Shown: positions 24,864 to 30,454, numbered from the stretch's first letter. The stretch: 39,163 nucleotides of DNA from Bacteriovoracaceae bacterium (GCA_016784965.1 JADHTQ010000042.1:1-39163), one strand, 5' to 3'. Numbers and translations: made by a program. The notes: generated by a model not told the origin, from the letters alone.

Positions 24864-25961
24864 CTACTTCTGTTTGATCATATTATAAAAGCCACCAAAG
24901 GCCATGAGCTCACTACATAGCTTTGCAGCTTTGGGAATGAAGTTTTCAGAAATGCCTTCTTTATTCTTAATGGTATGTTTTACCAAAGAATATAAAAGCT
25001 TTGAGTATAAATTGCTCCATGGATGAATCGCATAATCTTGATATAAGTCAAAGTTTTTCCTATCGAGGTTTTCTCTGTACATCATTTTGCCAAACACTGT
25101 TTCAAGCGGCCTTTCTAGAATTACAAGCGGTGCAAAATCTTTTTTTACTTTACAAAGATTAAAAAACTGCCGGCTTATATTTTGCTTTTGAAACCTTGGT
25201 TGATTAACAATTATGGCCTTTATCAAAACCTCAACTACTTTTTCAAAGTCTAAATTATCAATATGAGCTATTGGGTTGTAGTAAAGCAATATATCATTAT
25301 TGACCAGCTTAATTTGGGGATTTTGGCCTTGTGGCCACCAAATTAAAAGCACTCTCATATTGATCTTTAAAGAACGTCCCTTTTGTTTTAAGTAAAAAAA
25401 TTTGCTGGCATTTTTTAGTAGAGCAGCAATTTTTGCTTTTCGATAAAGCTTTTCCAAACCTTTTTCTTTTGACCTGAAGTTACTACTTTCTGCTGCAATA
25501 TGCTCAAGTTTGGGTTTAAAGGTCCTATACACCTTCACCAGAAATTTCATCTCATCCTTTTTGAGCTTTTTTGACAATTTTTTCAACCCTTTTTCTAGGA
25601 TCTTTGCAGAATAAAATGCCTCTCTAAAATAATCCATTTTATACTTTTTTACTGAAAAGAGCATAGATTCATCACTTTGCGATTTACTAGCACTTGATTT
25701 ATCATACTTTTGCCTAAGCTTTGCATAATCGTCTAACAAGGCCTCTTCCAAAGCGCTTAGCTTTAGTTTTTCATCCCAATACTTTTTGTACTCCTTGAAA
25801 TATTCGCCACTTTTCCACTGAGAGAGCTGATCTACCACTTCAAAAAGGTTTGCGCCCTCTAGGTAGTGCATTTTCACTTTTATACTTGCACTGCTAGCAC
25901 TATTAGACCAACTTAAGCTCAAGACTAAGACAAGGTGGATGATCCATTTTTTTTGCTTCAT
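24864..25961 (-). CDS. Secreted hypothetical protein, third gene of the CpaF-like operon
   Basis: A 365-residue product with a clear Sec signal peptide (MKQKKWIIHLVLVLSLS, cleavage near SASSA at about 25). The mature protein is lysine-rich and mostly helical (EKGLKKLSKKLKKDEMKFL; KGLEKLYRKAKIAALLK), with a hydrophobic beta stretch at about 200-230 (MRVLLIWWPQGQNPQIKL). No family is recognised. It follows the CpaF-like ATPase gene by 26 bases; GGG about seven bases before the ATG is a weak ribosome-binding site. The stop lies seven bases from the protease stop (convergent). Confidence 0.7.
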   Translation of the reverse strand: MKQKKWIIHLVLVLSLSWSNSASSASIKVKMHYLEGANLFEVVDQLSQWKSGEYFKEYKKYWDEKLKLSALEEALLDDYAKLRQKYDKSSASKSQSDESMLFSVKKYKMDYFREAFYSAKILEKGLKKLSKKLKKDEMKFLVKVYRTFKPKLEHIAAESSNFRSKEKGLEKLYRKAKIAALLKNASKFFYLKQKGRSLKINMRVLLIWWPQGQNPQIKLVNNDILLYYNPIAHIDNLDFEKVVEVLIKAIIVNQPRFQKQNISRQFFNLCKVKKDFAPLVILERPLETVFGKMMYRENLDRKNFDLYQDYAIHPWSNLYSKLLYSLVKHTIKNKEGISENFIPKAAKLCSELMAFGGFYNMIKQK

Positions 25962-25987
25962 AATTTACCCTAAGTTTTTTGTGCATT

Positions 25988-27037
25988 TTAAGGTTTAAAA
26001 AAATTCATAGCTAAACCACCGTCTGTATGTAGTCTCTGCATACATTTCGGGGTAATTCCAGTTTCTGCAAGCTTGCCCTCGGAGTAAGAGGCAACATTGT
26101 GAGTTAGAACCATACCATTTTCCATACCAGTAAGCTCTGTGATCCTAGTAATAACCCTTTCACCACCTCTAGTACGGGTAAGTTGAATAATAAAATCTAC
26201 TGCACTTTGTATCTGACCTCTTACAACTTTATTTGGCAAATTATTACCAGATAATAGATATAGCGTTTCCATTCTGCTGAGACAGTCTACTGGCGAATTT
26301 GCATGAATTGATGAAAAGCTTCCTTCATGCCCTGTATTCATCGCAAGCAATAGATCAAATAACTCACCTCCTCTAACTTCTCCCACCACAATACGATCAG
26401 GACGCATCCGTAGTGCATTTTTTACTAGATCTCTCATGGTAACATCTAGCTCAGACGCCAACTGCTTCTTCGAGGCCTCTAACCCAACAGTATTTGGGGC
26501 GTTTGAAACCAACTCTGAGGTATCTTCAATTGTAATAATTCTTTGAGTACTATCAACTTCTGCAAGTAGTAAGTTAAGCAGCGTTGTCTTACCAGCACCT
26601 GTTCCCCCAGACACTATAATGTTCACCTTAGCACTTACTAGGGCCTTTATAAAAGTAACCCATTTTTTATTTAGACCGAATATGGTTGGAGTCTTTTCAA
26701 GAGATACTATCGATTTGAGATATTTGCGAATTGTAATTGCCGGACACTCTTTTGTAAGAGGAGGTAGAATAATATTTATGCGACTACCATCAGGCAAATT
26801 GCCGTCTAACATAGGAAATTCTTCACTGCATAGCTTTTTATTAAATTTTGCAATATCTTGGACAAATTGGTAAATATCTTCTTCACGTAGCGCCACATTT
26901 AAGGCAATAAATTGCCCCTCACGCTCCACAAAGACATTTTTTATATTATTAATTACTACTTCAGTAATACCCTTTTTAACTTCCAATTCCTTGAGAAGTT
27001 TCCAGACTGTATTGCTTTCATCTTTTGATAACTCCAC
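25988..27037 (-). CDS. CpaF/TadA-type secretion ATPase, short form
   Basis: A 349-residue ATPase of the type II/IV secretion superfamily. Motifs in order: MLDGNLPDGSRINIILPP and ITIRKY (N-terminal domain), Walker A SGGTGAGKTTLLN, ITIEDTSEL (Asp box), RMRPDRIVVGEVRGGE (Walker B), and GHEGSFSSIHANSP (His box). These are the CpaF/VirB11 signatures. It is about 100 residues shorter than typical CpaF at the N-terminus. No other pilus or tad gene (prepilin, CpaE, TadB/C, secretin) is in view, so its partners are unknown. The start is GTG with GGAGG 11 bases upstream. Middle gene of a three-gene operon. Confidence 0.85.
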   Translation of the reverse strand: MELSKDESNTVWKLLKELEVKKGITEVVINNIKNVFVEREGQFIALNVALREEDIYQFVQDIAKFNKKLCSEEFPMLDGNLPDGSRINIILPPLTKECPAITIRKYLKSIVSLEKTPTIFGLNKKWVTFIKALVSAKVNIIVSGGTGAGKTTLLNLLLAEVDSTQRIITIEDTSELVSNAPNTVGLEASKKQLASELDVTMRDLVKNALRMRPDRIVVGEVRGGELFDLLLAMNTGHEGSFSSIHANSPVDCLSRMETLYLLSGNNLPNKVVRGQIQSAVDFIIQLTRTRGGERVITRITELTGMENGMVLTHNVASYSEGKLAETGITPKCMQRLHTDGGLAMNFFKP

Positions 27038-27080
27038 TTTGTCTAAACCCTCCTGCTTTTTTTAATTTTTTTGATGAAAA

Positions 27081-27785
27081 CTATACCATCTCAGAATAAA
27101 ATATCTCTCCATCATTAACTGCATATCCATATCTCAATAAATTATTTAAGAGAACAAACCTCTGCTCGGTGTTTAGCTTTCCATACAATGCAGTATATCC
27201 TGTATTGTTTTCAATCAGATCACGGAGTTGATTTTTCCCAAAGAAGTCTTTAAAGTGCCACAGCAATATCACAACCCAGTCGATTTCAATCGTTTTTGCG
27301 CTGGCAAATGATAACAATTCCAGCAAATCTTCACTCAAGGTCAAATTGTGTAGGCCATGGGGTGCGCTAGCTTTATATAAAGGACCACGATCTGCTGCTC
27401 TTTTACTCATTTCAATATACAAGGCCATCAGAAAACTTCTTGAGTATCCCTCTATCGTAAATGGTTTCAGTGTCTCTTCAAAGGCCAATATATGATTTAC
27501 TAGGCCAATATCGGGAGTGTTGGGATACACTCCAGTATCTAGATAGGCCAACAGCAGTGCCGCAACCTGGTTTCTAAAGCCGTTCCAACCCAATGACTTC
27601 ACAATGACATCGATTCTTATCTTTTCATCGATATTTGGAAACACCTTTTGAATGAGAGCATAAAACCCAGCATTTTTTTCTATATAGGAAGTCAGATTAT
27701 CAAAATTTCCTTTACTGGCCTGCATATTAATGCAAAGCAAGTGAGAAAAATACTCTGGTATCTCAATATTACCACAATTAATCAT
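27081..27785 (-). CDS. Hypothetical protein, first gene of the CpaF-like operon
   Basis: A 234-residue product with no signal peptide and no recognised family. It is predicted largely helical, with hydrophobic helices (FRNQVAALLLAYLDTG; SRSFLMALYIEMSKRA; IEIDWVVILLWHFKDFFG) that are too polar to be clear membrane segments. It ends 43 bases before the CpaF-like gene. The ATG has no Shine-Dalgarno and a near-consensus promoter ends six bases before it, so the mRNA is probably leaderless. A cytoplasmic partner or regulator of the ATPase is possible but unproven. Confidence 0.65.
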   Translation of the reverse strand: MINCGNIEIPEYFSHLLCINMQASKGNFDNLTSYIEKNAGFYALIQKVFPNIDEKIRIDVIVKSLGWNGFRNQVAALLLAYLDTGVYPNTPDIGLVNHILAFEETLKPFTIEGYSRSFLMALYIEMSKRAADRGPLYKASAPHGLHNLTLSEDLLELLSFASAKTIEIDWVVILLWHFKDFFGKNQLRDLIENNTGYTALYGKLNTEQRFVLLNNLLRYGYAVNDGEIFYSEMV

Positions 27786-27821
27786 GACAACATTATACCA
27801 ACTCTTTTAAAAAACGGTCAA
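27783..27821 (-). promoter_or_regulatory. Near-consensus promoter for a leaderless transcript (CpaF-like operon)
   Basis: Minus strand: TTGACC (27821-27816), an 18-base spacer, TATAAT (27797-27792), six bases, then ATG (27785). Initiation seven bases after the -10 would fall on the A of the start codon. Confidence 0.6.
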
Positions 27822-27835
27822 AATTTAATGATTTA

Positions 27836-27853
27836 TGCTACAATTTTCATATG
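27836..27853 (+). promoter_or_regulatory. Extended -10 promoter for the divergent unknown genes
   Basis: TGC-TACAAT (27836-27844) is an extended -10 with no good -35. Six bases separate it from the ATG at 27851 and no Shine-Dalgarno is present, matching the leaderless layout of the facing operon. Confidence 0.5.
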
Positions 27854-28360
27854 AAAGTTCCTATTTTTGAAGAAGTATTACTTGAAAAAAATGATTTTAT
27901 ATCAATCATGGAAGTATTGATGGAGACAGATATTGGACACGCTCCAGTATATATCGATTTAGACAACTATGATGAAAGTGAATATGATGAATTATTAACC
28001 AATTTGCTCCTGGCCTTAAGAAGTATGCAAATTAATCCCTTTTTTCCCTACCCTGTCTATATTGTAACTAACAAATTACCACAACATAACAGCTTACCAA
28101 TAATCGATTCATATGATAATTTCCCCTTGCACTTTATAACTAAAAGAAAAAGACTCAACAATCGCGAAGTTGCATTGCTGAAAAAAATCTCAATACTAGT
28201 GGAAAAAACCAAAAACCTTGCCATCAAGGAAAAAATGGCTTCAATTCAACGCCCATTATCTCTGCAACGAAACTTTTTACAAACATGTAAAGAAGTTTCT
28301 TTTTATACCAAAGTGCTCAATAAAGTTGTGCAACGAGATAGCTTTTCAGGAACAGACTAA
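27851..28360 (+). CDS. Hypothetical protein
   Basis: A 169-residue product, not recognised. The first half is acidic (VYIDLDNYDESEYDELLTNLLLALRSMQINPFFPYPVYIVTNK), resembling an alpha/beta domain; the second is basic and helical (TKRKRLNNREVALLKKISILVEKTKNLAIKEKM). There is no signal peptide or membrane segment. It faces the CpaF-like operon across 65 bases and is followed two bases later by another unknown gene, so the two form an operon. Confidence 0.65.
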   Translation: MKVPIFEEVLLEKNDFISIMEVLMETDIGHAPVYIDLDNYDESEYDELLTNLLLALRSMQINPFFPYPVYIVTNKLPQHNSLPIIDSYDNFPLHFITKRKRLNNREVALLKKISILVEKTKNLAIKEKMASIQRPLSLQRNFLQTCKEVSFYTKVLNKVVQRDSFSGTD

Positions 28361-28362
28361 AG

Positions 28363-28749
28363 ATGAGTAAAAAAGATAAAAAACTAAAGCTTCCAGGTCG
28401 TAAACTAAAGGATCTAAAAGGATTTGAAGAAGTTTTTGATTTAGTTGACAGCCCTTTTGACCCTTCTTTAGGAGCACAAAAAATCCCAAGAAACGACGAA
28501 CACTTTGATATTTATTCTTTTTTAGAAGAGGAGTTGCTGCGCCTGAGGTCAATCGACGATTTTTTTTCTAATCAAATAGAAATTCTTATAGATCATCCAC
28601 AAACAGAGCTACTACTCAATATCCAACAAAACAAACTAAAATTACTAAAAAATGAATTGATAAGTAGGTTAGAGACTCCATACTCGCCATTAAATTTAAA
28701 CCTAGAGCATGCTTGGAACTCTACATTTAGCTCCCCTAAGCCAAAATAA
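28363..28749 (+). CDS. Hypothetical protein
   Basis: A 128-residue product, not recognised. The N-terminus is strongly basic (MSKKDKKLKLPGRKLKDLKG), then an acidic region (FEEVFDLVDSPFDP; DEHFDIYSFLEEELLRLRSIDDFF) and a helical end. Its ATG lies two bases after the preceding stop; AGGA twelve bases upstream may serve as its ribosome-binding site. It overlaps the end of the convergent DUF6178-like gene by 14 bases. Confidence 0.6.
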   Translation: MSKKDKKLKLPGRKLKDLKGFEEVFDLVDSPFDPSLGAQKIPRNDEHFDIYSFLEEELLRLRSIDDFFSNQIEILIDHPQTELLLNIQQNKLKLLKNELISRLETPYSPLNLNLEHAWNSTFSSPKPK

Positions 28750-30454
28750 TTGCACCACCAATATGTTTAAAGTCTGCAACTTGTAGTTTATCATACTCAT
28801 ATCCCTCTAAGTGTTCTGATAAGACAACTTGCAAATATTCAACTATTCCTTCTACTTCACTTAAACCAAACTGAGCAACAAAAGATGTTAAAGATTCTAT
28901 TAATAATTTATCATTTACAATTTTTCCTTCTTTATCTAAACATTTTTGACTAAATAATTTAAACTCATCTAAGGTAAGACCCATTTTTTGTTGTGCCTTA
29001 CCGTCTTGGTAGTTGCCCAAATTGAAATTTGCAAAACTACTTAAGATGATGGCCTCAAAATCAATGTCTTCTACATTGTAGTTCAAGTAAAAACTGTCCA
29101 TTAACTTACTTTCTTTTATCAACTCCTCTAAGCTTAGGTAAAATTTATGAATAAACGGCAATAAATCGGCGATACAGCACCCAACTTTTTTCCATTGCTG
29201 GTAATCTCTAAAACTGACAACCTCTACGTCGCTATTAACTGTGCGACTAGAGTATTTAATGGGATATATAAAAGCGCTATTAATAAATTCATTAATATAG
29301 GTTCCTAAAAAATATTCTTTAGTATCATGAAATGGTGTTTGCTTTAGACTTTGGTTAAGCTTTTTATGAACAAACCTAACTAGGCTGTTGCCAATTTTAT
29401 ATAAATCTGCAAAGTCAAAAGTATCAAAGATAGACTCTACTTCAGCTGTGCCCTGTAGATCACTCAGCAATTTATCTACATAATTAAATCCAAGCAACAT
29501 CAAGTTTTTGGTTTTTCTCCCGACCTTTGTCATTGCAACTGGTCCATCTTTTAAAACATTGTTGCTGGCCAAAGTTGAGTTAACGAGCCTAATAAAATTA
29601 AACTGCAAGTATCTCTGTCTTGGGGCAGTACTAACTTTAGAAAGGGCCGTATCTAAATACTTGGGCATCTCTGTGAAGGCCACTAATGATTTGTGGTGTA
29701 AGGTTTGCCTTTTGCCTTCATCATCTATTGTTGCAGTATTAGGCCTTTTATTTTTAATGAAACGCCCAAGCTGCTCAATTGTTGGAAAAGTATTCTCGGT
29801 TAAAAGAGCGTCGTAGTAGTCTACAAATCCATAATCAGCTAAGCGATCTTTTTTAAATTTATACTCCTGCTCTTGCATTTGTAAAAAAGAATCTGAAAGT
29901 ATTTTAAAAAGATAGGAGTATGCTGCTTCCACCCCTAAATGTGTATATAGATCTTTTATGAGACTTCTTAGCTCATTTACATATTCAAAATTTTCATCAA
30001 ACTCCACAAGCAATAAATTATCTTCTGTTAAAAAAAAGCAATCATGCTCTGGATAGTTTGGATCTTCTGCATCAAAGGTCCAGATATTTACTCGGCCCTT
30101 CAAAAAAAGAGCAAAGTGATCACTGGTCACAAACTCTTGTTTAATTTCTTCATTAGTTGAATGTATGTAAACCTGCAGCCAGTAAGTAAAACTATCTAAG
30201 TCGAGTTGATCTTTTTGCCATAAATCTAAATCCAAAAAGGACTCTCTTTGCTCTTTTGATAGCTTATCTAGCACACCACTAACTAATTCAGCTGGTAGAG
30301 TTTTTAAAACCTGATATAGTGGATCGATAGGATGAGCAGAAAGGTCCATTCCGGCTTGCACATTTTGCTCAATTGCTTCCAAAGAGGTATAGCACTCCGA
30401 TTCTTTAATCATGACCTTTAAGATGTCCAAAACTTTTATTGCCCCTTGATACAA
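28736..30454 (-). CDS. DUF6178-like hypothetical protein
   Basis: A 572-residue cytoplasmic-looking product. LKTLPAELVSGVLDKLSKEQRESFLDLDLWQKDQLDLDSFTYWL near the N-terminus resembles the opening of DUF6178 proteins from deltaproteobacteria; this is from memory and not searched. The rest is helical, with CFFLTEDNLLLVEFDE and many phenylalanine/tyrosine-rich helices. The start is uncertain: TTG at 30454 sits six bases after a perfect TATAAT, while an ATG at 30412 has AAAGG only three bases before it. No function is known. It stands between the unknown cluster around the CpaF-like gene and a small secreted protein gene. Confidence 0.7.
   Translation of the reverse strand: MYQGAIKVLDILKVMIKESECYTSLEAIEQNVQAGMDLSAHPIDPLYQVLKTLPAELVSGVLDKLSKEQRESFLDLDLWQKDQLDLDSFTYWLQVYIHSTNEEIKQEFVTSDHFALFLKGRVNIWTFDAEDPNYPEHDCFFLTEDNLLLVEFDENFEYVNELRSLIKDLYTHLGVEAAYSYLFKILSDSFLQMQEQEYKFKKDRLADYGFVDYYDALLTENTFPTIEQLGRFIKNKRPNTATIDDEGKRQTLHHKSLVAFTEMPKYLDTALSKVSTAPRQRYLQFNFIRLVNSTLASNNVLKDGPVAMTKVGRKTKNLMLLGFNYVDKLLSDLQGTAEVESIFDTFDFADLYKIGNSLVRFVHKKLNQSLKQTPFHDTKEYFLGTYINEFINSAFIYPIKYSSRTVNSDVEVVSFRDYQQWKKVGCCIADLLPFIHKFYLSLEELIKESKLMDSFYLNYNVEDIDFEAIILSSFANFNLGNYQDGKAQQKMGLTLDEFKLFSQKCLDKEGKIVNDKLLIESLTSFVAQFGLSEVEGIVEYLQVVLSEHLEGYEYDKLQVADFKHIGGAIILA

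Follow-up and report, generated by a model that had tools for sequence, protein, structure and literature searches.

The ATPases that power type IV filaments are usually understood through their platform proteins. In CpaF, the Tad-pilus motor of Caulobacter crescentus, a three-helix bundle formed by residues 80-149 (PMC11300603) is counted in the minimum architecture of the protein (PMC12019362), and the contact with the platform, as modelled and partly tested, involves helix 5 with loop 8 (G204, R205, R206 and D208) and an extended pore loop (E331 and G334) (PMC11300603, PMC12019362). Here we describe a CpaF-related ATPase that is encoded, together with three proteins of undescribed families (P3, P4 and P5), in the region 24864-28749 of a 39,163-nucleotide stretch of DNA from a Bacteriovoracaceae bacterium (GCA_016784965.1 JADHTQ010000042.1:1-39163; the whole stretch is hereafter the window). 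The four genes make up a conserved unit, the block, in which P5-P4 on the plus strand diverges from P3-ATPase on the minus strand (Table 1), and which is specific to the window's family.

A search with one genome per species recovered orthologous loci from seven relatives, each labelled as Bacteriovoracaceae or Bacteriovorax, and the name Bacteriovoracaceae as used here for the window's family is based on these named relatives. P5-P4 diverges from P3-ATPase in all seven (in locus L018 P4 was detected by profile only), and their ATPases show 51-58% identity, with the next matches, at about 42%, coming from other phyla. Across 30 family loci taken from whole genomes, one of which is the window, P5, P4 and P3 have the same arrangement in every case and the ATPase gene directly follows P3, its almost invariable upstream neighbor, in 29, a conservation far beyond chance. 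No signal peptide or evident membrane helix, as judged by hydropathy, is present in any of the four proteins. Comparisons of P3, P4 and P5 with Pfam, NCBIfam, PHROG and PADLOC returned no family beyond weak scattered matches; in particular, none of the three matches a PADLOC model and the ATPase gives only generic P-loop matches, so that the block corresponds to no known anti-phage defence system of that collection, while a phage origin was set aside given the lack of PHROG matches to P3-P5. The literature searches made found no paper on the four-gene block. A sequence-only reading of this DNA had delineated five open reading frames here, and it was exact in their coordinates and strands as well as in the 65-base divergent gap (27786-27850); its proposal of an undescribed conserved unit is likewise borne out, as neither outcome that it named as a refutation was observed: the neighbors are conserved in relatives, and the ATPase stands apart from the tad locus in the phylogeny.

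The ATPase matches the T2SSE domain, and the closest model is that of TadA (TIGR03819), with a score below the cut-off of that model. Its alignment to the C. crescentus protein begins at CpaF residue 152, about 11 residues into the profile of the block ATPases, and covers 304 residues (E 1e-96), which agrees with the sequence-only description of a CpaF-like ATPase lacking about 100 N-terminal residues. Both the N-terminal disordered region and the three-helix bundle of N-terminal domain 1 (NTD1) are absent. We compared 36 block ATPases with 74 canonical and 12 tad-locus ATPases of the same phylum, using the numbering of C. crescentus CpaF. Walker A, Walker B, the arginine finger R347 and the His box are intact in the block ATPase, and all three sets are invariant (100%) at the P-loop lysine, the catalytic glutamate, R347 and the histidine of the His box. 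The platform-contact motifs (GRRxDE in loop 8 and RPxNxEGxG in the pore loop), whose contact residues are 91-100% conserved in the canonical and tad-locus sets, are, in contrast, not retained. G204, which is present in 98-100% of the canonical and tad-locus ATPases, is replaced by K, R, Q or N in the block ATPases, which have an invariant Asn one position before this site and a one-residue deletion in helix 5; the G204-R205-R206 stretch of loop 8 is lost, with R206 missing from most of the 36, and D208 is partly kept (58%). Likewise, E331, G332 and G334 are found in 91-100% of the canonical and tad-locus ATPases vs at most about 16% of the block ATPases. In a phylogenetic tree the block ATPases form a single clade (Shimodaira-Hasegawa-like approximate likelihood ratio support 99), apart from the clade of tad-locus fusion ATPases (95) and from a third clade of 375-amino-acid ATPases. 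The block ATPase descends from a CpaF/TadA-type Tad-pilus motor as a separate subclade, and does not group with the tad-locus ATPases. As for the third CpaF-like ATPase, the version in the window's own genome (L153:9142-10266; 374 amino acids) is also N-terminally short and has a YkuD-like gene and genes of the ExbB/ExbD type nearby, and its clade spans several families of the phylum.

P3 occurs in 46 of 50 genomes of the window's family, P4 in those same 46, and neither in any of 142 genomes from elsewhere in the phylum. In the four family genomes without them the orthologous ATPase is also absent, with retention of the gene for the DUF6178 protein, which in the window overlaps the end of P5. 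Two of these genomes (L160, L161) present a clean empty site, in which the end of the DUF6178 gene directly abuts hemE; in L017-L019 and L266 the block sits between these two genes. Among 59 family genomes examined for co-occurrence, 45 have P3 and the ATPase, six P3 only, one an ATPase-like match only and seven neither (Fisher p = 4e-5, an optimistic value given that the genomes are related). The single ATPase-only genome, G192, is 75% complete and supplies the lowest-scoring match (374 bits). In two genomes (G198 and G200) the ATPase gene is far from P3, yet both are retained. Of the loci that have no ATPase gene beside P3, those of G158, G209, G210 and two genomes of one genus (g122; G193 and G215) preserve DUF6178, P5, P4 and P3 intact, whereas in G093, with P3, P4 and P5 intact, a fumarase gene occupies the place of the ATPase; these lineages are scattered on a tree of P3 and P4 built by a quick method. 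Given that the ATPase-free loci keep P3-P5 intact and that ATPase-only genomes are nearly absent, P3-P4-P5 is the core of the unit and the ATPase an optional part, rarely retained without the core. Two further associations were considered and dropped. Long branches of P3 and P4 are seen after loss of the ATPase, but DUF6178 diverged too in several of those genomes, making faster evolution of P3 and P4 inseparable from a lineage-wide effect. When only genomes of 90% completeness or more are considered, three lack P3 and three lack FlhA, with two shared, but the flagellated G150 lacks P3 and the losses track small genomes, and hence a link to flagella was not upheld.

We tentatively favor, while holding it at a little less than an even chance, the interpretation that the CpaF-derived hexameric ATPase drives a cytoplasmic P3-P4-P5 complex rather than a pilus platform. 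By its sequence, the motor keeps all of its catalytic machinery, with the inter-subunit arginine finger, and has lost the three-helix bundle along with both surface motifs modelled to contact the platform; it would still form a hexameric, ATP-driven ring, which might act on the P3-P4-P5 complex, with P3 as its main helical partner and P4 and P5 presumably pairing via their helical C-terminal halves. With more reserve still, we consider it possible that a pilus-type hexameric motor, detached from filament assembly, now powers a cytoplasmic machine whose components come from three undescribed families, one of them with a predicted fold unmatched among solved structures, and which is kept across nearly the whole bacterial family, including Bacteriovorax. 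In keeping with a partnership, the evolutionary distances of all four proteins co-vary beyond the DUF6178 control, most strongly between P4 and the ATPase (partial r 0.53) and P5 and the ATPase (0.48; permutation p 0.001), a signal that is suggestive, as the species tree is not fully accounted for by a single control protein.

Several observations weigh against this interpretation. The proposed interaction of the ATPase with P3, P4 and P5 is deduced from sequence and gene context, and the co-variation was measured with that single control in 26 genomes. The occurrence of P3-P4-P5 without an adjacent ATPase in the six genomes mentioned above weakens the case for an obligate partnership, though the genomes are a sample made up mostly of metagenome assemblies, in which single absences can be gaps. 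The fourth P-loop residue is Ser in two of the 36 block ATPases. The model of P4 combines a mean predicted local distance difference test (pLDDT) value of 89 with a low predicted template modelling (pTM) score of 0.54, and the ATPase tree was built by a quick method with the above support measure only, the program flagging a possible long-branch join of the outgroup rows and the block ATPases. Nor do the data support the proposal, in the sequence-only reading, of an envelope or secretion system organised around a secretion ATPase: the four proteins have neither signal peptides nor evident membrane helices, no dedicated platform is found, the platform-contact residues are lost, and several lineages keep P3-P4-P5 when the ATPase is gone, so that the ATPase is not what the unit is built around.

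The principal alternative, somewhat unlikely in our estimate, is that the ATPase is a second, dedicated motor of the Tad pilus, for retraction or regulation in the manner of PilT, which acts on the single TadB/TadC platform with P3-P5 as adaptors. The region of the block, as the sequence-only reading had it, encodes no pilin, platform protein (TadB/TadC) or secretin, and its suggested search for separated tad and platform genes did locate a tad locus, on another contig of the same genome and with its own TadZ-TadA fusion ATPase, but no extra platform for the block ATPase. The genome has six T2SSF domains, distributed over two double-domain proteins and two single-domain proteins of the TadB/TadC type; of the latter, TadB adjoins the tad-locus ATPase and the other is encoded on another contig (L243:491-1378). 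Fourteen of 15 further family genomes, some with and some without the block, also have six such domains, and one incomplete genome five. A dedicated platform protein was looked for elsewhere in these genomes and not found; TadB/TadC-type proteins make up a single pair, and no other platform is free. The alternative survives the loss of loop 8 and the pore loop because PilT is modelled to contact PilC via a surface other than that used by extension motors (PMC12019362), which makes this loss compatible with a retraction motor. Moreover, the match of the block ATPase to the family profile extends to the very C-terminus, as those of several tad-locus ATPases nearly do. However, TadB and the fusion ATPase persist in genomes without the block, the block, unlike Tad-type fusion ATPases, which are found in further families of the phylum, is limited to one family, six genomes keep P3-P5 without this ATPase, and a single CpaF performs both functions in C. 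crescentus (PMC12019362). In the tad loci themselves, the gene that comes after TadB encodes an RHS-repeat/DUF6531 protein whose N-terminus is hydrophobic (L154:6637-9250 in the window's own genome; L244:4286-6893).

The ATPase-free genomes, along with the unlinked genes of G198 and G200, would also be expected if P3-P4-P5 were a unit of its own and the ATPase an independent passenger on the P3 promoter. We regard this as improbable: an ATPase without P3 is seen in just one of the 46 genomes with an ATPase match, that of the low-scoring G192, both partners are retained when unlinked, and their rates co-vary beyond the control.

The DUF6178 gene (Pfam 115.7 bits against a gathering threshold of 25.5), a more conserved neighbor overlooked in the sequence-only reading, raises a further alternative, namely that it belongs to the system and all five proteins cooperate, for example in assembling respiratory oxidases or in their quality control. 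In at least 32 of the 46 genomes it lies next to P5, no more than 3.5 kb from P3, frequently overlapping P5 at the 3' end; in six of the seven named relatives its end abuts P5, and the block often sits between it and hemE. Yet none of the 50 family genomes lacks it, not even the four that have no block; it also occurs in other families, and is encoded away from the block in genera g2, g7 and others, which leaves a five-protein system quite improbable and indicates that DUF6178 is probably a neighbor rather than a member of the block. Elsewhere in the phylum the DUF6178 gene is beside SCO1 and COX1 (L195, L196), and in genera of the family where it has left the block its neighbors are genes for a copper ATPase and a regulator of FNR type and a ccoN-ccoO fusion (L203); the last apparently joins CcoN and CcoO in one open reading frame of 721 amino acids (L203:13987-16152; COX1 plus FixO). 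This proximity to genes for cytochrome oxidase, SCO1, ccoNO, a copper ATPase, FNR and haem synthesis (L195, L196, L201-L204) suggests a role for DUF6178, on which our literature search found no paper, in the assembly or regulation of respiratory oxidases. Finally, that the ATPase serves as VirB11-type motor to a type IV secretion system whose other genes lie elsewhere is hardly credible, for its 229.5 bits against the VirB11 model do not reach the cut-off of 249.95, and for the eight block-carrying genomes searched it is refuted by the lack of any VirB4-family protein where the positive control worked.

Table 1. Features of the block and its flanks in the window
Feature	Coordinates	Strand	Remarks
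Secreted lysine-rich protein; not in the unit	24864-25961	-	signal peptide, isoelectric point 9.8
CpaF/TadA-type orphan ATPase, 349 amino acids	25988-27037	-	GTG start, AGGAGG upstream; N-terminal domain 2 (NTD2) and ATPase core only
P3, 234 amino acids, all-helical cytoplasmic protein, undescribed family	27081-27785	-	AlphaFold2 model
Divergent regulatory region P3/P4, 65 bp	27786-27850	.	sequence
Sigma70-like promoter for P3	27792-27821	-	TTGACC-18-TATAAT, TGn before -10, 11 of 12
P4, 169 amino acids, small alpha/beta domain and long C-terminal helix, undescribed family	27851-28360	+	
P5, 128 amino acids, N-terminal KGFEE motif then helical/coiled-coil region, undescribed family	28363-28749	+	2 bp past P4
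DUF6178 protein, 572 amino acids, convergent	28736-30454	-	14-bp overlap with P5; PF19676 115.7 bits

Consistent with the sequence-only label of an unknown helical protein, the AlphaFold2 model of P3 is all-helical (mean pLDDT 90, pTM 0.89), and it has no fold match in the PDB (best E 1.4) or among the viral predicted structures of BFVD (best E 0.9). A guess from its sequence that P3 might be a diverged HDOD protein was given up on account of this lack of fold matches and of the scattered weak hits that are all that Pfam returned for 36 members. The best PDB match of P4, to pyruvate kinase (E 0.05, TM 0.28), was too weak to use for its identification. In P5 the KGFEE motif preceding the helical region is conserved.

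The predicted P3 promoter is the best of 23 hits in the divergent region, with shuffled sequence giving 21.5 hits on average. The P3 ATG lies 6 nucleotides past the -10 element (TATAAT), and a TACAAT is found shortly upstream of the ATG of P4. Given these -10 elements close to the ATG and the lack of an evident Shine-Dalgarno sequence in both cases, the P3 and P4 messages may be leaderless. An operator common to all divergent regions was not recovered, sequence being kept only within groups of close relatives; in one clade (L014, L016, L094-L097) a palindromic motif, AGTATAAACTA, is conserved between P3 and P4 and is possibly an operator.

The secreted lysine-rich protein, the only secreted one among the five that had been grouped as one unit, does not belong with the other four: homologs occur in 16 of the 59 family genomes, including the window's own, and in relatives they are never beside the block but always distant from it. 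Those of the 15 other genomes share 23-36% identity, lie in unrelated loci (L247-L255), and identify the protein as a member of an undescribed secreted family.

If the favored interpretation holds, this subclade, which has retained the engine but not the known platform contacts and is preserved with three undescribed proteins in almost an entire family, would show how such a motor gets reassigned; if instead the ATPase is a second Tad motor, it would provide a dedicated second motor for pili that are known for a single bifunctional one. Among described systems, VirB11 has a related core fold, with the sub-threshold score and missing VirB4 noted above. PilT, the retraction ATPase of type IVa pili, offers a precedent for a second ATPase acting, via a different surface, on a platform shared with the extension motor, though the block ATPase scores only 56 bits against the PilT/PilU model, whose cut-off is 319. 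KilF of the Kil (Tad-like) prey-killing apparatus of Myxococcus xanthus is also a CpaF-like ATPase of a predatory bacterium (PMC8460266). The Kil genes are divided among more than one cluster (PMC8460266), and an ATPase away from its platform is therefore not unusual in itself, but the KilF gene is accompanied by those for a secretin and a prepilin peptidase (PMC8460266), neither of which the block has. Closest remains CpaF/TadA (C. crescentus CpaF, PDB 8rjf, 8rkd and 9e24): unlike it, the block ATPase is encoded outside the tad locus, falls in a clade separate from the tad-locus ATPase of the same genomes, and lacks the disordered N-terminus, the three-helix bundle and the loop 8 and pore-loop motifs, whereas NTD2, the ATPase core and the catalytic motifs are common to both.
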